A stretch of 12,936 bases of DNA from Nitrospinota bacterium. GTDB taxonomy: Bacteria > Nitrospinota > Nitrospinia > JACRGO01. Positions within the stretch are counted from its first letter, which is position 1. The number at the start of each line of letters is the position of its first letter. Below the pieces are notes generated by a model. It saw only the letters and a program-made list of their open reading frames with translations, was not told where the DNA came from and searched no databases. Below, one piece after another: positions 337-11,338 of the stretch. The translations under genes were made by a program, and so were the position numbers. The stretch spans positions 1 to 12,936 of the forward strand of contig JACRGO010000182.1 of the NCBI GenBank assembly GCA_016212295.1, given 5' to 3'.

Positions 337-2301
337 TCAATCTTTCTCCTGCCCCTTTAGGCCAAGGACCTTATAAGTCATGACCGGGTGGAAGATTCCC
401 TTGACGTTTATGGTTCCCGTATATTCGCAATCCACAATGTCCTTCACAAAGGCGTAGGTGGAATGGCTTAGCGTTATTTCTCCGGGTTGCGAGGAGCTTT
501 CAAGCCTGGAGGCCAGATTGACCTGGCCGCCTATAGCCGTATAGTCCATTCTGCTGTCTGAGCCGAAGTTGCCCACTGTCGCGTATCCGGTATTGATCCC
601 TATCCGGATCTCAAGCGGGAATTCAATGCCCCGGTCCACCCATTTTACCCTCAAGGTCTTCATTCTCTCCCTCATGCTCAACGCCATCAGGACGCATTTC
701 CTGGCGCTTTCCTTATGGGGCGACGGCTCCGGCGCTCCGAAAAAGATCATGATTGCGTCCCCGATGAATTTATCAATAGTCCCCCCGAATTCAAAGGCTA
801 TCTGCCCCATCTCAAGGAGGTATTCATTTAGAAGTTCGCTCAATTCCTCGGCCTCCATGGAATCGGTGATCTGGGTGAACCCCTTGATGTCCGAGAAAAA
901 AATGGTCAGTTTCCTGCGTTCATGCTGGATGGATACGTCTTTTTCCCCCTTCATGATCTGGTTCACCAATTGAGGGGCGAGATATCTTTTAAGGAGATCG
1001 CTTTTTTGAAGCACCCCCACCTGCTCCCGCACCTTCCTTTCCAACTCGCGGTTAAAATTGCTCAATTCCTCCTGCGCTGTTTTCAGATCTTCATTGGATT
1101 TTGAAATGGCCTGGTTGGCCTCTTTCAACTCAGCGGTCCTTTCCTCCACCTTGGTCTCAAGGTTTTCGATCATTTCCTTCAGGGAGAGCCGCATTTTTTC
1201 AAAGGCGCGGGCCAGAGTCCCTACCTCGTCGACGGAAGAGACCTGGACCGATTGGGACAAATCTCCCCCTGCAAGCCGGGTTGCGGAGGATTCGAGTAGG
1301 TTAATTGGCCGGGATATCCGGCCGGAAATGAGCATGCCGGTGAGAAACCCTATGCAGGTCGCGGAAATACAAAGAAGGAAAATCACAGTGGAAGTGGCAT
1401 GGACGCTGTTGTCCACGTCTATATTCGCCCTTTCCATGTCTTTCCAGCCGCGTTGGGCTATTCTGTCCGCGACTGACACAATCTGAGGGGCGTAAGGTCC
1501 CAAGGTCTGCTTGATTTCAGAATCCAGCTTCAGGATAATGGACGAAATGCCTGAAAAGGTGTCAAAGTAATCCTCAATTGCCTCCGCCAGGGACTCAAGA
1601 GCGGGTGCGAATTCCCGGTCTTTTTTCTCCTTCAGCAGGGAATGAAGGTCCGGTATTTGTTGGCTGGTGATCTTGTCAAAGAGTGAAAATGCCTCGTCAC
1701 GGCCCCCTGCTTCAGGGACGAACAAAAATTGGTCGATTTTTTCCTGGATCTCCGAGATCCGGTAAAAAAGGTCCACGCACATGGAAGCGGCCTTTTTGTT
1801 GCCCATGACGGATTTGGCGAACTCAGTGATTCGCTTGGATACCGTTACTCCCTCGGCCTTCAGCTTTACAACGTTTTCATTTCTGGACTGGAGGCGGAGC
1901 GCCGCGTTTTTGTATTTATTGACATACTCCTCGATTAAACCGGCGATCTCCTTGAGGTCCTCCCTGGTCTTGTCCTCATTGATTTCCCTTTCGGCGTCAT
2001 GTAGCAGAAGGCGCAGGTTCTTAATATGCTCGCTTGCGCGGTTGTCGTCTTCCTCCTTTTGGAAGGCCAGGAAGGAGTCCACGCTCGACCTCATGGAAAG
2101 GGTCTGGAAAACGATCCTGTCCGAAATCCTTACTTCCCTGGCAACGTCCTGCGTGAGGTGTTCGACCTCCTTGTTGAGGGAGTGGAGCTGCCGGTAGGCA
2201 AGCCAGCAGACCACGTTCATTAAAAGAATGATGAGCAGGTAGCCGCCGATTATCTTGGCCCTAAGCCTGGACGCCAGTAAATTTTTAACCGACCTCAGCA
2301 T
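337..2301 (-). CDS. Membrane-bound class III adenylate cyclase with HAMP domain
   Basis: This 654-aa protein is predicted to make cAMP from ATP in response to a periplasmic signal. An N-terminal membrane segment (about residues 17-37) and a second one (about 303-327) bracket a roughly 265-residue helical extracytoplasmic region. A HAMP linker (about 320-375) and a coiled coil (about 378-435) lead into a class III cyclase domain (about 462-648). Metal-binding aspartates appear in FFSDIKGFT (D471) and FIGDAIMIFFGAP (D515). Purine-recognition K511 and T588, and transition-state residues N595 and R599 (VNLASRL), are present. Thr in the second purine-recognition position is the pattern known for class IIIb enzymes. 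The catalytic set therefore looks intact, and ATP rather than GTP is the expected substrate. The start keeps the first membrane helix, but no clear Shine-Dalgarno precedes it. The gene is divergent from the glycosyltransferase. The sensor region has no recognised ligand domain beyond being four-helix-bundle-like. Confidence 0.9.
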   Translation of the reverse strand: MLRSVKNLLASRLRAKIIGGYLLIILLMNVVCWLAYRQLHSLNKEVEHLTQDVAREVRISDRIVFQTLSMRSSVDSFLAFQKEEDDNRASEHIKNLRLLLHDAEREINEDKTREDLKEIAGLIEEYVNKYKNAALRLQSRNENVVKLKAEGVTVSKRITEFAKSVMGNKKAASMCVDLFYRISEIQEKIDQFLFVPEAGGRDEAFSLFDKITSQQIPDLHSLLKEKKDREFAPALESLAEAIEDYFDTFSGISSIILKLDSEIKQTLGPYAPQIVSVADRIAQRGWKDMERANIDVDNSVHATSTVIFLLCISATCIGFLTGMLISGRISRPINLLESSATRLAGGDLSQSVQVSSVDEVGTLARAFEKMRLSLKEMIENLETKVEERTAELKEANQAISKSNEDLKTAQEELSNFNRELERKVREQVGVLQKSDLLKRYLAPQLVNQIMKGEKDVSIQHERRKLTIFFSDIKGFTQITDSMEAEELSELLNEYLLEMGQIAFEFGGTIDKFIGDAIMIFFGAPEPSPHKESARKCVLMALSMRERMKTLRVKWVDRGIEFPLEIRIGINTGYATVGNFGSDSRMDYTAIGGQVNLASRLESSSQPGEITLSHSTYAFVKDIVDCEYTGTINVKGIFHPVMTYKVLGLKGQEKD

Positions 2302-3995: not shown

Positions 3996-4083
3996 CCATG
4001 CCGCGCTATGAAAATAACATTTGACAATTTTTTCCTTTGGGTATATATTCATTTCTAACTGGAAAAGGCATAGCGCGGCATGG
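3996..4083. promoter_or_regulatory. Consensus sigma70 promoter bracketed by a perfect 15-bp inverted repeat
   Basis: TTGACA (4021-4026), a 17-nt spacer and TATATT (4044-4049) make a near-ideal sigma70 promoter for the small gene starting at 4080. It is flanked by CCATGCCGCGCTATG (3996-4010) and its exact reverse complement (4069-4083). The right arm covers the start codon of the downstream gene. Each arm is itself an imperfect palindrome (CAT-N2-CGCG-N2-ATG), as expected of a dimeric regulator's site. Arm centres are 73 bp apart, close to seven helical turns. The left arm lies upstream of the predicted transcription start, so the promoter's own mRNA cannot form this hairpin. Operator function is inference. 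Confidence 0.65.
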
Positions 4084-4502
4084 CCGCAACCAAAATAAAT
4101 TTTGACGTATTCAAACGTTCGATGGCCCGAAAAAATAAATTCCTTCATTCAACTTTCGTTCTTTTCTTCACCCTCTGTCTGGCGGGTTTGAATCCTGGGG
4201 CTATTTCCATGAAACCCGGGGCGGCCCGGCCCGATGCGCCAGTGGCGGAGCATTCCCGCCATTCGGGTGGCCATCACCAGGACAAGGGAAGCAATGGCCA
4301 TGATCCAGCGGGGAAAGCCCATCACGGAGACTGCGCCGGGCATGTGGGTCTGGTCAGCTCCTGTTGCATGAGCGCGGCATTGCCCAAGGCATTTCCCGCA
4401 CTCCCCTCATTTGATCTTCATGACGCAATCTTTTCCAATTATCTCTTCACGCTCTTGCCGGGTTTTGACTCCCCCCCATTCCACCCTCCGATCCTTTCAT
4501 AA
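4080..4502 (+). CDS. Small secreted His/Cys-rich protein, possibly metal-binding
   Basis: This 140-aa protein has a signal peptide-like N-terminus. Basic residues around RKNK (17-20) precede a hydrophobic run (about 23-40). Mature residues 58-88 are rich in histidine (58, 61, 65, 66, 74, 81, 82, 88) and carry the motif HHGDCAGH followed by SSCCM (C95, C96). The C-terminus ends in a proline-rich SPPFHPP. His/Cys-rich small exported proteins ending in a Pro-rich tail are known next to copper and Co/Zn/Cd efflux genes (DUF2946- or CzcI-like proteins). I infer that type by resemblance only, as no efflux gene is present here. ATG 4080 has an AAAGG 11 nt upstream and lies about 24 nt after the predicted transcript start. 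Met15 (4122) would leave a more typical signal peptide but has no ribosome-binding site. Confidence 0.6.
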   Translation: MAATKINFDVFKRSMARKNKFLHSTFVLFFTLCLAGLNPGAISMKPGAARPDAPVAEHSRHSGGHHQDKGSNGHDPAGKAHHGDCAGHVGLVSSCCMSAALPKAFPALPSFDLHDAIFSNYLFTLLPGFDSPPFHPPILS

Positions 4503-4654: not shown

Positions 4655-5237
4655 ATGAAGGGAAAAGTTTGTTTGCTCGTAGCCTTAGTCCTTTTTTACA
4701 CAATTTTAATGGAAGTATTTTTACCCCCCGAGGCCGGGGCAACTCCCGCCTTTGGCCGGACAATCGAGCGGCACGGGCTTTAACTCCAATGGACCGCTCA
4801 GCGGCGGCCTCGAGGCGGCCAAGACGAAATCCATCGGCATGGACCTTCAGGCCCAGGGAAATATAACGAAGGATATCACCCTTGGGCTCACCTCCATGCT
4901 CCTCTTCGATACGGGCGACAATTCGCCGAGGAACATCTACGGAAAGAATGATAACGAGGCTTATGGCGTGAACATCGATCTCGGTTTTCTCGATGACCGG
5001 GCCATACTGAAACTCAACTATACAAACCAGCAAGCGAATTTTCTTGAGGAGAATGTTGATGTCTATTCCGTCGGGGCCCAGTACTCCATAGCCCAGAACG
5101 TGCAACTTAGAGTCAGTTGGTCGTTTTACGATGGCGATATAGACGGTCTTGGCCTGGGGCCGATGGGCGGGATGGGAGGCATGGGGAACAGCGCGAATGA
5201 TACGGAATTCGCAACGACCCTTTACTTTGCCTTTTAA
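4655..5237 (+). pseudogene. Outer-membrane beta-barrel (porin-like) gene, frameshifted and probably truncated
   Basis: ATG 4655, nine bases after GGAGG, begins a good signal peptide (MKGKVCLLVALVLFYTILM, then EAGATPAFG). That frame stops soon after, near 4783. From about 4710 a second frame is open. It encodes a barrel segment ending in the outer-membrane signature TTLYFAF at 5234, with a TAA stop. Without repair, this segment could only start at TTG 4752 and would lack any export signal. About seven amphipathic strands can be counted, for example DITLGLTSMLLF, YGVNIDLGF, RAILKLNY, VYSVGAQYSI and VQLRVSWSFY. An odd count suggests the N-terminal part of a larger barrel was deleted. Alternatives are a sequencing indel in a small eight-strand barrel or a remnant of a porin. 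A Gly/Met-rich loop (about residues 137-147 of the open segment) precedes the last strand. Confidence 0.6.
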
Positions 5238-5322: not shown

Positions 5323-5454
5323 ATGAAACAGATTTTTATAAAAATAACTGGCGTGTTGTTGCTGTTGGTTGCTGTAAGTGGTTGCGTGACTACGCCGAAT
5401 GACGGGTCCGGCAAACAATCGAGCAGCAGCAGATCGCTGGGTCATCAGCATTAA
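5323..5454 (+). CDS. Small outer-membrane lipoprotein
   Basis: This 43-aa protein begins MKQIFIKITGVLLLLVAVSGC. It has a charged N-terminus, a hydrophobic core and a lipobox VSGC, so Cys21 would be lipidated by signal peptidase II processing. The mature part is only 23 residues, rich in Ser and Gly, ending SLGHQH. A CAGGAG Shine-Dalgarno (5311-5316) is well placed before ATG 5323. Longer in-frame starts upstream would put the signal sequence internally and are rejected. Such tiny lipoproteins are common and seldom characterised. It could be part of the unit with the following kinase, although a stem-loop lies between them. Confidence 0.6.
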   Translation: MKQIFIKITGVLLLLVAVSGCVTTPNDGSGKQSSSSRSLGHQH

Positions 5455-5572: not shown

Positions 5573-6889
5573 ATGATTAATTTCCTGAAAAATATTTTTG
5601 GTTTCGATAATGATGTATTTCCCCATGGCTTGGCTAACCCCATGGAACCGGGCCTATCTTGGTTCCACGCGGTCTCGGAATTACTCATAGGTCTTTCCTT
5701 TGTCTCGATTTCCCTTTCCCTGCTTTTTTTCGTTTGGAAAAGTCGAAGGGTCCCTTTCCCCTGGGCGTTTTCGGCCTTTGGGTTGTTTATCATATTGTGC
5801 GCGGCGCACCACCTTCTGGAGGTATTGAATATATGGGTGCCGGCCCATTGGCTCGCAGGGTATGTAAAAGGAATCACGGCCCTGGCCTCGGTTGCAACCG
5901 CGGCGCTGCTGTTTCCGTTAATGCCCAAGGCCCTGGCCCTGCCAAGTCCGACAGAACTCCTGGAGGCCAATGAACATTTACAGCGTGAAATAACCATAAG
6001 AAAACAGGTTGAAGAGGAATTACGGAGGTCCAGGGATGAGTTGGAGTTGAGAGTAAAAGAAAGAACCTTCACCCTGGCTCAATTAAATGAAGAACTTCTA
6101 AAGGAGATAGAGGAGCGCAAGCAAGTGGAAGAAAGATTATGGCTGGCGAAGGAGGACGCCGAGGCCGCGAATCGAGCCAAAAGTGAATTTTTATGCAATA
6201 TGCGCCATGAACTGTGCACCCCCCTGACCTCTATCATTGGTTTCACGGATATCCTCATTGCGGAAAACGGTCTTTCTGAAGAACAGCGCAAATTTCTTGA
6301 AATAGTAAAATCTTCAGGCAACAATTTGTTGAGTCTGATTAACGAAATACTGGATATCTCCAGGATAGAATCCGGAAAACTGGGATTGAAAGAAACTGCC
6401 TTCGATTTGCGGGATACCATGGAGAAAAGCCTGCTGCCGCTTGCCAGAAAGGCCCGGCAAAAAAACCTTGAATTTTTTATTTTTATCAAGCCGGATACCC
6501 CTACCGCGTTAATTGGAGATATGGTTTGCCTTCGCCGGGTCATCCATAATCTTGTGGACAACGCCATAAAATTCACTAAAACGGGGGAAATCGAAATATC
6601 CGTTTCGTTAAAAGACACGACAAACGACGGCGCAAGATTTCATTTCTCCGTTCGCGACACCGGCATAGGGATTCCCAGGGAGAAGCAGGAAATTATTTTC
6701 GGCATTTTTACGCAAGCGGATGGATCAAGCACACGAAGGTATGGCGGCGCCGGTTTGGGGCTGTCCCTTTCAAGGAAACGGGTGGAGTTGATGGGCGGCG
6801 GAATATGGGTGGAGAGCGAGGAAGGGGCGGGAAGCGCCTTCCATTTTGAGGTTCCCTTCAAATTCTCTAATAGAGAGAAGATATTTTAG
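5573..6889 (+). CDS. Histidine kinase with ETR1-like (ethylene-receptor-type) membrane domain
   Basis: This 438-aa sensor kinase has three N-terminal membrane helices (about 34-55, 66-86 and 94-118) that align without gaps to the plant/cyanobacterial ethylene-receptor domain as I remember it. C76 and H80 (ILCAAHH) match the copper-ligand Cys65/His69 of ETR1, and I73 matches Ile62. The Asp25 position is Glu36, Tyr32 is Phe43, Pro36 is Ser47 and Glu38 is Ser49. A coiled coil follows (about 128-200, with two similar RKQVEEEL/RKQVEERL heptad blocks). The kinase core has phospho-acceptor H212 in RHELCTPL (an altered SHELRTPL), N330 in the N box (NLVDNAIKF), DTGIGIP (362-368) and GGAGLGLSL (391-399). 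There is no GAF and no receiver domain, so a separate response regulator is needed and none is nearby. The start has GAGGAAGG upstream. Kinase function is firm; the ligand (ethylene, copper or another small molecule) is inference. Confidence 0.88.
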   Translation: MINFLKNIFGFDNDVFPHGLANPMEPGLSWFHAVSELLIGLSFVSISLSLLFFVWKSRRVPFPWAFSAFGLFIILCAAHHLLEVLNIWVPAHWLAGYVKGITALASVATAALLFPLMPKALALPSPTELLEANEHLQREITIRKQVEEELRRSRDELELRVKERTFTLAQLNEELLKEIEERKQVEERLWLAKEDAEAANRAKSEFLCNMRHELCTPLTSIIGFTDILIAENGLSEEQRKFLEIVKSSGNNLLSLINEILDISRIESGKLGLKETAFDLRDTMEKSLLPLARKARQKNLEFFIFIKPDTPTALIGDMVCLRRVIHNLVDNAIKFTKTGEIEISVSLKDTTNDGARFHFSVRDTGIGIPREKQEIIFGIFTQADGSSTRRYGGAGLGLSLSRKRVELMGGGIWVESEEGAGSAFHFEVPFKFSNREKIF

Positions 6890-7006: not shown

Positions 7007-7273
7007 GTGACATTCCGCCTGCCAAAATCAGCCGCGCTTAGCTGTAACAGCGTGTTCATCGTTGGCGATTTCAACAATTGGAATATCCACGCGCACCAAA
7101 TGAAGAAGCAAAAAAACGGGGACCACACCATCTCCCTGAATATAGCGGCAGGCAAGGAATACCAGTTCCGCTACCTTATTGACGAATCAAAGTGGGAAAA
7201 CGACTGGAAGGCGGACAAGTATGTAAAGAGTCCCTATGGGGACTACGACAACTCCGTTGTGGTTGTTTGGTGA
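7007..7273 (+). CDS. Glycogen-binding / isoamylase N-terminal-like (CBM48, AMPK-beta type) domain protein, 5' end disturbed
   Basis: The open frame ends with a typical CBM48-like fold: VTFRLP, VFIVGDFNNWN, HQMKKQKNGDHTISLNI, GKEYQFRYLID, WENDWKADKYV and a terminal NSVVVVW. These small stand-alone domains resemble the glycogen-binding module of AMPK-beta and the N-terminal domain of branching enzymes. GTG 7007 is only the first legal start in this frame. The same frame reads sensibly upstream (KKEYFDGEKICR) to a stop at 6944, with no ATG, GTG or TTG. A well-spaced GGAG-ATG (6899/6910) exists but in the neighbouring frame, which stops at 7039. A one-base change around the AAATTT run (6945-6950) would join them into a protein of about 120 residues. 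The gene lies directly behind the kinase. Its role, carbohydrate or protein binding, is not known. Confidence 0.65.
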   Translation: MTFRLPKSAALSCNSVFIVGDFNNWNIHAHQMKKQKNGDHTISLNIAAGKEYQFRYLIDESKWENDWKADKYVKSPYGDYDNSVVVVW

Positions 7274-7290: not shown

Positions 7291-7507
7291 GTAACCGTTA
7301 ACGTGGTTGTCATGAAAAACCGGAGAAAGCCTCATTGGCTATTTTTTACATCTCCCTTTGTCCCCCTTTGCTAAGGGGGAATTAAAGCAGGGTCCATTTT
7401 AGGGGTGTTTCCCGTATTCCCCCTTAGCAAAGGGGGACAAAGGGGGATGTGGTTTCCCCTGCAATTGAGCGTGAAGCTGTTTTCCATGACATCCCGTGAA
7501 CGGTTAC
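7291..7507. repeat. Second nested inverted-repeat element (MITE-like)
   Basis: The outer ends match as inverted repeats: GTAACCGTT at 7291 and its complement AACGGTTAC ending at 7507. Similarity extends, with a few mismatches and a gap, over about 28 bp through TGTCATG. The inner arms 7348-7382 and 7416-7450 are 35-nt reverse complements with one mismatch, and each contains CCCCCTTTGCTAAGGGGG-type mini-hairpins. No ORF and no obvious target-site duplication are seen. The design (short terminal repeats around long G/C-rich arms) is the same as that of the 1-315 element, but the sequences differ. Confidence 0.75.
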
Positions 7508-7693: not shown

Positions 7694-8191
7694 ATGAATA
7701 TATTTGAAGGTCTACAGGCCGCGGTGAATGTCCACCCCCTCTTTGTCCATTTCCCCATCGCGCTCCTTATGATCGCGGGCGTCTTGTTTATTGTATGTTA
7801 TTTTATGGATCTGCCGGAGTTGCGGGCCGCCGCGAAATGGAACCTTATTTTGGGATCTTTGTCAGCAATTGCCGCCGCCGTAACCGGTTTTATCGCGGCC
7901 AATAGCCTGCCCCACAACCAGGAAATCCACGAGGCGATGCTCATGCACAGGAATATCATGGTTCCGGCAACCCTCCTTTCCCTGGCGCTGGGCGGCTGTC
8001 TTTTCTTCAAAAAAGACCTGTCTCTTATTCATAAACAAAAGGTTTTTCTTGCGGGTTTGATTTTAATCCTGGGACTCCTTGCCGTTGGCGCCGATTACGG
8101 CGGCAAGATGGTCTTTAAATACGGGGCCGGGACGGAATTATTCAAAAAACTAAACGCTGAAGAGGGAGTCGGGCACAAACATGTTGACTAA
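7694..8191 (+). CDS. DUF2231-type four-helix membrane protein
   Basis: This 165-aa inner-membrane protein has four predicted helices (about 16-38, 50-70, 88-103 and 117-132). It shows the family-typical opening VHPLFVHFPIALL (H14, H19), a histidine-containing loop (H74, H79, H85) and the conserved GADYGGKMVFKYGAG (132-146). DUF2231 proteins are uncharacterised. The membrane-facing histidines make heme or metal binding conceivable, but that is inference. GGGAGAA sits 8 nt before ATG 7694. The 3' end overlaps the HD-GYP gene by 11 nt in another frame, so the two are likely translated together. The DUF2231 protein may then be a membrane partner for, or signal input to, that phosphodiesterase. 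Confidence 0.82.
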   Translation: MNIFEGLQAAVNVHPLFVHFPIALLMIAGVLFIVCYFMDLPELRAAAKWNLILGSLSAIAAAVTGFIAANSLPHNQEIHEAMLMHRNIMVPATLLSLALGGCLFFKKDLSLIHKQKVFLAGLILILGLLAVGADYGGKMVFKYGAGTELFKKLNAEEGVGHKHVD

Positions 8192-9371
8192 CACATATGA
8201 AAATATTATCATCCCCGGCAATATAAGGGAAAAAACGGCTGATGTTTCCAGGGGAATAAAGTTCCCAGCGGTTGTAATCACCTTTGCCCTCTCTCTTTCC
8301 GTGGCAATCCTGATCATCCTGCTGGCGGCGAGGGTCGTGGATTTCAGCGCGCAGGTGACTGAACATTATGCTCCTACCATACATGGAGTTAAATCCCTTG
8401 CCGAGGCCGTAGGGCATGTAAGGGCGCACATTGAAAAGGATGGAACTCTTGACCAAACCACGCTGCTTCATTTTAAAGAAGCCACGGAAAGGCTCAGGAA
8501 ATTATCGTCCAATTGGTTTCCCGCTTATATGGAACATATAGACGGCATGCTTAAAAAAGCGGAAAAAATTCTCTCGGAATTGCCGGACAAAAATTTTCCA
8601 GGGGAATTTTTGCCGGATTTAAGGGCCTTGAACGGGGAGGCCCTGAAACATGTCGTATTGCACGACGCCGAGTTGGAAAAAGCGCGGATTGGAATAAAAA
8701 ATTCGGCCATGGAAATAAGAATGGCCGCATTGGCGATGTTATTGGCCGGAGCTATTTTCTCTTTCCGAGAGTTCCAAATGCGCCGGTTGAGGGAACTGGA
8801 AAAGGAGAAGCTAGCCGCTATAAAGGCGTTCGTTTCGGCCCTTGAAGCCCGGGACCCTTATACCAAGGGCCACTCCGTAAGGGTTGCGGATTATGCGGCA
8901 TTGATCGGGAAGAAGATGGGACTTAAAAAAGAGACCCTGGAACATCTCAATATAGCGGCCCTTATGCACGACATCGGCAAGATAGCCGTCCCTGACGGCA
9001 TTCTCCGAAAGGCGGGGAAACTAAGCGATGAGGAATGGAAAGAGATGAGGAATCATCCTGTTGTTTCCGCCAGGACCTTAGAGACCTTTGACTCCCTTAA
9101 AAACATCCTGCCCTGGACCTTATATCACCATGAAAGGTTTGACGGAAAAGGGTATCCTGAAGGAAAAGCCGGGATGGATATACCGCTGCCGGCGCGGATC
9201 ATAGCGCTTGCGGACGCATTTGACGCCATGACGTCGGACAGGGCGTATAGAAAGGCGTTGCCCGTGGAGAGCGCCCTGTCCGCCTTGAGGGAAGGAAGAG
9301 GCTCACAATTCGACCCAAGGATAGTGGACGGCTTCCTGGAACTTTTGAGCTTAACGCCTCCGGCGAGCTAA
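8181..9371 (+). CDS. Membrane-anchored HD-GYP cyclic-di-GMP phosphodiesterase
   Basis: This 396-aa protein has a membrane helix (about 28-53), a periplasmic helical region of roughly 125 residues, a second helix (about 179-196), a short coiled coil and an HD-GYP domain (about 213-390). Metal and catalytic residues are intact: H231 (KGHSVRVADYA), H263-D264 in HDIGK, H292 (NHP), H316-H317 with the GYP signature (HHERFDGKGYP, 316-326), D345 (ALADAFDAM) and TSDRAYR (351-357). HD-GYP enzymes hydrolyse c-di-GMP to pGpG or GMP, lowering the messenger and usually promoting motility over biofilm. The periplasmic region is unassigned; it resembles four-helix sensors of chemoreceptors in general character. 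ATG 8181 lies inside the end of the DUF2231 gene, with GAAGAGGGA about 13 nt upstream, suggesting translational coupling. Confidence 0.9.
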   Translation: MLTNTYENIIIPGNIREKTADVSRGIKFPAVVITFALSLSVAILIILLAARVVDFSAQVTEHYAPTIHGVKSLAEAVGHVRAHIEKDGTLDQTTLLHFKEATERLRKLSSNWFPAYMEHIDGMLKKAEKILSELPDKNFPGEFLPDLRALNGEALKHVVLHDAELEKARIGIKNSAMEIRMAALAMLLAGAIFSFREFQMRRLRELEKEKLAAIKAFVSALEARDPYTKGHSVRVADYAALIGKKMGLKKETLEHLNIAALMHDIGKIAVPDGILRKAGKLSDEEWKEMRNHPVVSARTLETFDSLKNILPWTLYHHERFDGKGYPEGKAGMDIPLPARIIALADAFDAMTSDRAYRKALPVESALSALREGRGSQFDPRIVDGFLELLSLTPPAS

Positions 9372-9459: not shown

Positions 9460-9723
9460 TTAAAAAAAAGTTGATTTTCACGTTACCTATTTGATTTTTA
9501 AAGATTTAAAATGGAAATTCCTAGTGCGCCAGGCCAAGCTTGCGCGATCCAGTTGGTTGAGAAGCCAACCTGACAAAGTCAGCCGACCGTCAGAACCGAG
9601 TCTTGCGCTTATGAAGGTAACTTCATGAGTGAAGCGTAGACAGGGAGGCAGTAGGCCGTAATCCGAAAGGGTGAAGGTGTTCAGCTCCGAAAATGCTTAT
9701 GTTGTGGAGCCAGCCGACGTGGT

Positions 9724-9729
9724 TAGGAA
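9724..9729 (+). other. Exon-binding site EBS1 of the group II intron
   Basis: TAGGAA pairs over all six bases with the exon sequence TTCCTA (9518-9523) immediately preceding the intron. It lies 200 nt into the intron, where domain I normally presents EBS1. A six-base match at this place is suggestive but could arise by chance; no EBS2 was found. Confidence 0.6.
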
Positions 9730-9961
9730 CACGGAAGGCAGCAACGAAGCCATCGTTATAGGCGAGATGGCGGAACTCCACCGGGGTCAGAGTCCACGGC
9801 ATGTTGTCCAAGGGATTTCGCGGGAACCTGGGAGAACCTGTGTCTTCCTTCTGAAAAGAGGGTACCCGAAACCGAGGAAACGAGGCCAGGGGACAAGACA
9901 TGGGTAGTCGGATCAACTCATAGTACCGTCGAGGCCGGGTAATGCCGGAGGAGGGAAGGGG

Positions 9962-11338
9962 TTGACAAGCAGATGTACCGAGGAGGTGACACAATTGCCG
10001 GACATGGAACCGGACACCAAATTGTCAACACAACTGAATCGGCTATCAGAGATTGCGCGAAACAAACCAAAGACCCGGTTTATTTCTCTGGCCCATCTGT
10101 TGGATGAAGAAAGCCTGATGGAATGCTATTGGGAACTCAATCAGAACGCCGCTGCGGGAGTGGATGGGATAAGCTATGACAGGTATGGCAGGAATTTAGA
10201 AGAGAACATAGCGGACCTGGTAAAACGTCTCAAGAGCAAGAAATATCGAGCGACGGATATACGCCGGGTGAAAATCCCCAAACCCGATGGTGGAGAGCGT
10301 CCCTTGGGCATACCTGCGCTGGAAGACAAGATAGTCCAAAGAGGCGTGGCTAAGATATTAAGTGCCATATACGAAGAGGACTTTTTAGGCGTTTCCTACG
10401 GATTTCGACCCAAAAGAAATGGGCATGATGCGCTCAGGGCGGTGGAACTGAGCGTTATCAAAGGAGGGATAAACCACCTGCTGGACGTAGATATCAGAGG
10501 GTTCTTTGATAATCTCGACCACTCCTGGCTTATGAGGATGCTGGGAGAGCGTATCAAGGATCGAACGATATTGCGTTTGATAGGAAAGTGGCTTAAGGCC
10601 GGGGTATTGGAAGAAGGCAAAAGGACCCGCAATGAAGATGGAGTGCCTCAAGGGGGCGTGATTTCTCCCATCTTATCGAATATCTATCTTCACTATGTCT
10701 TGGACTTGTGGCTCATCCGGAAGGTATGCAAAGAGATAAACGGCAGGGCATATTTGACCCGTTATGCCGATGACTTTGTAATCGGATGCACGAACCGGAC
10801 AGACGCGAAGAAGATATGGGAAATGCTTGAGGGCCGGTTGAAGCAATTCGGCCTTGAGCTATCCCAGGAGAAAAGCCGCCTGATTGAATTCGGCAAGAAA
10901 GCGTACCTGGAATGCGAACGTAAAGGGATAAAGCCATCAACCTTTGATTTTCTTGGGTTTACGCATTATATGGACAGAAGCCGCAAAGGCGGCCTGAAAT
11001 TAGGCCGCAAAACCATTGGCAAACGCATGAGAAGAAAACTTGTGGCCTTGAATGATAAACTCAGAAAACTGAGGAATGCGCTTCCCTTTCGTGAGCTTCA
11101 TGAGCATTTGTGTCGGATTTTAAAGGGGTATTACAACTACTTTGGATTTGCGGGAAACGCGGCTACTTTGAGAAGATTTGGCTACATAGCCGGAAGATTG
11201 TGGTTCAAGTGGCTCAATCGGCGTAGTCAAAGAAAGAGCTTCAACTGGGAAGAGTTTAACAAGCTTCTTGGGCGCTATCCTTTGCCGAAACCAAGAATCC
11301 TGAAAGGGTATAACTGGATTTATTCGCCAGGTTTGTGA
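9962..11338 (+). CDS. ltrA: Group II intron reverse transcriptase/maturase
   Basis: The protein has about 458 aa. Its reverse transcriptase domain shows IPKPDGGERPLGIP (105-118), YGFRP (146-150), motif A DIRGFFDN (D177), VPQGGVISPILSN (228-240) and catalytic YADD (268-271). The X/maturase region includes FDFLGFTHY, LKGYYNYFG and WLNRRSQRKSFNWEEFNKLL (418-436). It ends soon after, with no HNH endonuclease domain, so target cleavage must use replication forks or single-stranded DNA. It splices its host intron and reverse-transcribes it into new sites. TTG 9962 follows GGAGGAGGG at 6 nt spacing. In-frame TTG 9995 follows AGGAGGTGA at 8 nt, and ATG 10004 is a third option. I kept 9962 because the extra N-terminal residues resemble those of homologues I recall. 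All motifs are intact, so the element could be active. Confidence 0.9.
   Translation: MTSRCTEEVTQLPDMEPDTKLSTQLNRLSEIARNKPKTRFISLAHLLDEESLMECYWELNQNAAAGVDGISYDRYGRNLEENIADLVKRLKSKKYRATDIRRVKIPKPDGGERPLGIPALEDKIVQRGVAKILSAIYEEDFLGVSYGFRPKRNGHDALRAVELSVIKGGINHLLDVDIRGFFDNLDHSWLMRMLGERIKDRTILRLIGKWLKAGVLEEGKRTRNEDGVPQGGVISPILSNIYLHYVLDLWLIRKVCKEINGRAYLTRYADDFVIGCTNRTDAKKIWEMLEGRLKQFGLELSQEKSRLIEFGKKAYLECERKGIKPSTFDFLGFTHYMDRSRKGGLKLGRKTIGKRMRRKLVALNDKLRKLRNALPFRELHEHLCRILKGYYNYFGFAGNAATLRRFGYIAGRLWFKWLNRRSQRKSFNWEEFNKLLGRYPLPKPRILKGYNWIYSPGL

Follow-up and report, generated by a model that had tools for sequence, protein, structure and literature searches.

A Nitrospinota sensor histidine kinase of the ETR1_N family with an altered ethylene pocket

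What does a bacterial sensor kinase perceive when it keeps the two copper ligands of the Arabidopsis ethylene receptor ETR1 and replaces other residues of the ethylene pocket? The question is raised by a gene found on a 12,936-nucleotide stretch of DNA from a Nitrospinota bacterium. We refer to the whole of this stretch as the window; it is contig C142 of a 3.74-Mb assembly, which consists of 237 contigs and is 90.5% complete. The reading that we prefer, and to which we give a probability of about one half, is that the product would be a sensor that holds Cu(I) and retains the acid of the pocket, with a lowered or altered affinity for ethylene and a partner that is not encoded nearby. Three other explanations, and a variant in which the site has been re-specified for another ligand, are weighed below against the evidence that bears on each of them.

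The protein and its register to ETR1

The reading frame is intact and encodes 438 amino acids. Searches with Pfam found only three domains in the product, an ETR1_N domain (PF25487) that begins near the N-terminus and covers residues 28-123, followed by HisKA (residues 202-268) and HATPase_c (residues 317-429); no receiver domain was found in the kinase. With a score of 102.9 bits (cut-off 27; E 1.1e-29), the PF25487 match is far above chance, and the protein is almost certainly a genuine bacterial member of the ETR1_N family. The features of the gene are as follows.

5573-6889 (+): ETR1_N-type sensor histidine kinase, without a receiver domain (open reading frame and Pfam)
6176-6376 (+): HisKA domain (Pfam)
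6206-6208 (+): phospho-acceptor His212 in the H-box MRHELCTP (codons read)
6521-6859 (+): HATPase_c domain; N, G1 and G2 boxes all intact (Pfam and translation)

An H-box usually reads SHELRTP; the other boxes of this kinase are HNLVDNAIKF (N), DTGIGI (G1) and GGAGLGLS (G2). Because all four boxes are present, the kinase half looks competent. An AlphaFold2 model, run on an alignment of 81 rows from which the plasmid-collection rows were left out, has three long helices ahead of the kinase (mean pLDDT 90.2), while no related solved structure was found either by sequence search or, at E ≤0.001, by fold. The predicted helices are listed here with the pocket residues that they carry.

5648-5740 (+): TM helix 1, residues 26-56, carrying Glu36 (AlphaFold2 model)
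5759-5836 (+): TM helix 2, residues 63-88, carrying Cys76 and His80 (AlphaFold2 model)
5846-5938 (+): TM helix 3, residues 92-122, carrying Lys99 (AlphaFold2 model)

For the register to ETR1 we used a reference sequence whose numbering matches that of residues given in PMC11819568 and PMC6586836; the same register was obtained with the locus of AzoEtr1 from Azospirillum brasilense (L097:1977-3554; 525 aa, with Asp35, Cys75 and His79 as published). Alignment to ETR1, AzoEtr1 and others bears out the proposal of the initial annotation that Cys76 and His80 are the ETR1 copper pair; both residues fall in modelled TM helix 2, and a placement away from the copper site was not seen. The alignment had been described as gapless, which is true of the stretch spanning helices 1 and 2, but the loop between TM2 and TM3 is three residues shorter than that of ETR1. 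The residues of interest are the following.

5633-5644 (+): residues 21-24, Ala-Asn-Pro-Met, versus Cys-x-x-Trp of relatives (alignment, codons read)
5678-5680 (+): Glu36, at ETR1 Asp25 (alignment)
5699-5701 (+): Phe43, at ETR1 Tyr32 (alignment)
5711-5713 (+): Ser47, at ETR1 Pro36 (alignment)
5798-5800 (+): Cys76, at the copper ligand Cys65 of ETR1 (alignment)
5801-5809 (+): Ala77-Ala78-His79, replacing Gly-x-Thr/Gly between the copper Cys and His (alignment)
5810-5812 (+): His80, at the copper ligand His69 of ETR1 (alignment)
5867-5869 (+): Lys99, at ETR1 Lys91, the predicted polar partner of Asp25 (alignment; role from PMC11819568)

In addition, Ile46 corresponds to ETR1 Ile35, which is thus kept, as is the equivalent of Ile62, and Ser49 corresponds to ETR1 Glu38. 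We take the seven ETR1 residues of Wang et al. to be Asp25, Tyr32, Ile35, Pro36, Ile62, Cys65 and His69, and at these positions the window protein has E, F, I, S, I, C and H, four of the seven being canonical. The initial annotation had correctly read Glu for Asp25, Phe for Tyr32 and Ser for Pro36. The Ser opposite Glu38, on which it also remarked, is correct as a letter but gives no sign of a change: Glu38 is not among the seven essential residues, the position is mostly Ala, Met, Thr, Leu, Ile or Val in our bacterial survey, where the sole Glu is that of ETR1 itself, and since Glu38 is not conserved in bacteria the Ser is uninformative. We know of no test in ETR1 of the conservative swaps Asp25Glu, Tyr32Phe and Pro36Ser.

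That seven residues of ETR1 are required for ethylene binding is stated, with reference to Wang et al. 2006, in PMC11819568 and PMC6682694; Ile35, Pro36, Ile62, Cys65 and His69 are named in PMC6586836, Asp25 and Cys65 in PMC11819568, and Tyr32 in PMC8879215. According to modelling, Asp25 positions His69 and forms a pair with Lys91 (PMC11819568); its mutation eliminates or diminishes ethylene binding according to the same paper, as does Ala in place of Tyr32 (PMC8879215). With Asn at position 25, ETR1 is described in PMC13012798 as a functional receptor of approximately 100-fold lower affinity, and changes at this position therefore tune affinity.

The window protein also shows larger departures, which the initial annotation had not mentioned. 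The motif PHGxCxxW is usual in bacterial members, although not part of the Pfam definition, and it reads PHGLANPM here, where the Cys is present in 99.1% and the Trp in 99.5% of 220 relatives; ETR1 itself is without the motif, so that its loss does not exclude the protein from the family. The Gly at residue 77 (ETR1 Gly66), present in 97.7% of relatives, is Ala, and the protein departs as well at Arg57 (93% of relatives) and at Tyr92 (96.8%; window numbering), which is His. The His at residue 79 (ETR1 position 68) is shared with only two other relatives and, judged by its place next to the copper pair, is a possible extra copper ligand. Altogether 6 of 21 highly conserved positions are changed, whereas 194 of 221 domains have no such change or one, and only a few of the 221 have six or more. 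Phe69, Cys76 and His80, which are invariant in an alignment whose rows were selected for an intact Cys/His pair, are all retained. A compensating double frameshift behind the lost Cys-x-x-Trp was also considered and dropped, as several edits would be needed to restore the motif.

In its general layout the protein is like AzoEtr1 (PMC11819568), with a three-TM ETR1_N domain, the copper Cys and His, the equivalent of Lys91 and a C-terminal histidine kinase that has no receiver. It is unlike AzoEtr1 in that the latter keeps all seven residues together with PHGxCxxW, binds ethylene, and has a PAS domain and an adjoining response-regulator gene. With ETR1, the namesake of PF25487, it shares the order of the helices, Cys65/His69, Ile35, Ile62 and Lys91, but in addition to the three pocket substitutions it has no GAF domain, receiver or N-terminal cysteines.

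Natural variation of the pocket among ETR1_N domains

Domains for comparison were gathered by a scan of GTDB contigs and by whole-genome searches centred on loci of six inferred groups (Nitrospinota, Myxococcota, Pseudomonadota, Wallbacteria, Cyanobacteriota and Alphaproteobacteria). This gave 263 unique ETR1_N domains, 242 of which, besides the window, have both copper residues; the frequencies that follow are approximate since the loci were partly picked by score. Among the 242, position 25 is Asp in 221, Asn in 16, His in two and Glu in one, position 32 is Tyr in 236 and Phe in two, position 36 is Pro in 213, Ser in 15, Ala in 10 and Thr in three, and all seven residues are canonical in 189. 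The combination of Glu25, Phe32 and Ser36 occurs in the window and in none of the 242 others, and no second member was found in about 1,925 genomes or when the GTDB contig collection was scanned for the pattern. In L150 (Pseudomonadota), the sole other domain to combine Glu25 with both copper ligands, positions 32 and 36 are Tyr and Pro, but position 91 is Leu. Glu25 is therefore rare, and it is absent from AzoEtr1, the proven ethylene binder compared here, which carries the canonical seven when its locus is read directly. With three of seven essential residues different, in a combination unique in the survey, these results support the suggestion of an ETR-like sensor with an altered pocket.

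Perhaps Glu, Phe and Ser are conservative enough for ethylene to bind normally, in which case this would be an ordinary ethylene receptor. Both copper ligands, Lys91 and an acid at position 25 are indeed retained, and each of the three residues is found among the relatives. Nevertheless, the three changes occur together nowhere else in the survey, the Geitlerinema receptor and AzoEtr1 are both reported to be canonical at the seven positions (PMC6682694, PMC11819568), and further near-invariant positions have been lost in the window, and we consider an ordinary receptor unlikely. From its sequence, the domain would likewise be unlikely to bind ethylene with the nanomolar affinity of the plant receptors.

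A second kind of evidence concerns the partner of position 25. Lys91 is lost in 17 of the 21 domains without Asp25, versus 26 of the 221 with Asp25 (Fisher p 3e-11, a value that ignores kinship), and Asn25 is often paired with Arg91. Domains with this pairing are L112, L120, L122, L123, L083, L161, L210 and L211. When independent pairs were compared, the covariation never ran in the opposite direction, with three usable pairs only; kinship accounts for part of it, and it is inseparable from shared ancestry. It is consistent with the proposed Asp25-Lys91 bridge, and the presence in the window of both an acid and Lys91 argues that the coupling of the two positions may be retained.

Two domains from the cyanobacterial search (L204 and L205) have His25 and His-His at positions 68-69 with Cys65 kept, a natural rearrangement of the copper site. 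The same search also gave five divergent ETR1_N domains (L194, L196, L198, L201 and L209) with Gly for Cys65 and His69 kept; these domains, called by profile, are likely not copper-ethylene sites.

In a maximum-likelihood tree of 85 domains (120-126 columns) the window stands on a long end branch of 0.98 changes per column and groups with domains that carry Ser36 or Asn25 and came from the cyanobacterial and myxococcal searches. When columns 25, 32, 36, 66, 68 and 91 were removed, it was still found in a set of 12 rows (support 99/96) made up of the window, Ser/Ala/Thr36 and Asn25 relatives and three canonical relatives. Holding the window together with the eight Ser/Ala/Thr36 members, a group chosen after the tree had been seen, was not rejected (AU p 0.6), and positions 25 and 36 have each changed at least seven times on the tree. 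A clade defined by Glu, Phe and Ser, which the initial annotation had envisaged, is absent from the sample. As the grouping with Ser/Ala/Thr36 and Asn25 members holds with the trait columns removed, the set lies at the far end of a natural tendency: as far as the sequences tell, it is no new clade but the most extreme case in a lineage that readily changes positions 25 and 36. Four of the clade mates (L208, L109, L213 and L215) combine Ser36 with Lys91 as the window does; these four and L112, L120, L122 and L123 have Asp or Asn at position 25 and, unlike the window, keep Tyr32, Cys21, Trp24 and Tyr92.

A canonical copy in the same genome, and the neighbouring genes

ETR1_N is present in 3 of 77 genomes of the phylum. 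It was not found in a genome of the same genus, and the other 76 genomes hold no close relative of the window protein. A viral or plasmid origin was rejected, given that no relative was found in viral contigs and that the 12 plasmid matches were distant, all below 60% identity; the latter were used only as relatives.

The genome itself has one further ETR1_N copy, at C215:1989-3119 (equivalent to L009:1423-2553), in which all seven residues are intact. This second kinase is of similar size and has 46-47% identity to the window protein over the sensor domain but, unlike it, has PHGxCxxW, an H-box of the form SHDLQEP and response regulators next to it, in the form of two following genes with receiver domains (read from sequence). 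The kinase half of the window protein is closest to other kinases of its own genome (51-52% identity) and that of the C215 protein is of a different subtype, which makes them separate sensor-kinase fusions. No response-regulator gene was found in the ORF list and Pfam scan of the window.

The canonical copy might then do the sensing, leaving the window sensor to drift under relaxed constraint with its kinase constitutive or otherwise driven. The changes at six of the 21 conserved positions, the long end branch, the scarcity of relatives within the phylum and genus and the absence of an adjoining response regulator would all agree with such drift. However, the reading frame and all the kinase boxes are intact, Phe69, Cys76, His80 and Lys99 are kept, and position 25 is still an acid, so that drift alone appears improbable to us. 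The copper pair and Lys91, the confident three-helix model and the natural variability of position 25 speak rather for a retuned sensor, although the lost Cys and Trp of PHGxCxxW, Gly66 and Tyr92 and the long branch fit relaxed constraint equally well.

A further explanation concerns copper, and depends on the genes around the kinase.

337-2301 (-): HAMP-adenylate/guanylate cyclase (ORF, Pfam)
3996-4083 (+): perfect inverted repeat of 15 nt; the 58 nt between its arms hold a strong promoter-like site, TTGACA-17-TATATT (11/12)
4122-4502 (+): His/Cys-rich, probably exported, weakly CopL-like protein (profile match, sequence)
4655-5237 (+): porin-like gene, apparently broken, with the signal-peptide start and the beta-barrel C-terminal part in different frames
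5323-5454 (+): small predicted lipoprotein of 43 aa, directly upstream of the kinase (sequence read)
7007-7273 (+): CBM48-like protein of 88 aa, directly downstream of the kinase (ORF, Pfam)
7348-7450: inverted repeat downstream of the kinase, its arms of 35 nt being 97% complementary and 33 nt apart
8181-9371 (+): HD-GYP protein (ORF, Pfam)
9560-11338 (+): group II intron (Rfam RF02005 at 9560-9796, 127.8 bits)
9962-11338 (+): reverse transcriptase/maturase frame of the intron (TIGR04416, 350 bits)

The inverted repeat at 7348-7450 resembles a mobile or palindromic element of small size. The ORF of the CopL-like gene is listed from 4080, with its first codons inside a dispersed repeat, and codons 1 to about 16-25 recur at several places in the genome. 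The segment 3996-4083 looks like a dispersed element that may give this gene a promoter together with a false start codon, and the true start is probably 4122. The porin-like gene has a weak Porin_4 match and a Met/Gly-rich stretch, and profile searches gave no convincing match for the family of the 43-aa lipoprotein.

The CopL-like protein matches CopL_fam over most of its length, at 19.8 bits versus a cut-off of 40, and this sub-threshold neighbour weakly suggests copper sensing: the Cys/His site, with the extra His79 alongside the kept copper pair, would read Cu(I) itself and the gene would serve copper resistance. Such a site would be buried in the membrane and not placed in a periplasmic sensor domain, and indeed the protein, unlike copper kinases of the CusS/CopS type, is without a periplasmic metal-sensing domain. 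No copAB/cusA-type gene was found among the window proteins scanned, the broken porin gene and the lipoprotein gene separate the CopL-like gene from the kinase, and for the CopL-like protein there was no match in the same-genus genome and only marginal, partial matches elsewhere in the phylum. We therefore regard a copper sensor as very unlikely.

A proposed mechanism and its meaning

A sensor with lowered or altered ethylene affinity, which we prefer, may have come about when a second copy of the ETR1_N sensor domain, fused to a histidine kinase of orthodox type, diverged. It would be a membrane dimer with one Cu(I) per monomer at Cys76/His80, and binding of Cu(I) by the domain is, from the residues kept, somewhat probable. 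Glu36 would still reach His80 and Lys99, through which the coupling of the pocket to the kinase would be kept, while the Phe and Ser changes and the extra methylene of Glu would lower or alter the affinity for ethylene. The outcome may be a low-affinity or retuned sensor of small olefins or gases working beside the canonical copy, with phosphate passing from His212 to an unlinked response regulator. Because a canonical copy with its response regulators is already in the genome, the window copy would have been free to diverge. A stronger version, in which the Glu/Phe/Ser pocket and the extra His form a site re-specified away from ethylene, for another olefin, for CO or for Cu(I) itself, seems to us distinctly unlikely; if true, the genome would run two ETR1_N sensors of different ligand range.

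The window protein thus probably belongs to a known kind of gas sensor, in retuned or weakened form, and does not represent a new protein type. What is known of the need for individual pocket residues comes mostly from Arabidopsis ETR1 with one residue substituted at a time. In the window protein three conservative changes have occurred naturally and at once, with the copper pair and Lys91 kept, and the canonical copy of the same genome is an internal control; a comparison of binding by the two could tell if an acid at position 25 is enough without Tyr32 and Pro36. Asn25 and Ser/Ala/Thr36 arise repeatedly in bacteria, and consequently lists of putative bacterial ethylene receptors that were compiled by profile only include many with altered sites.
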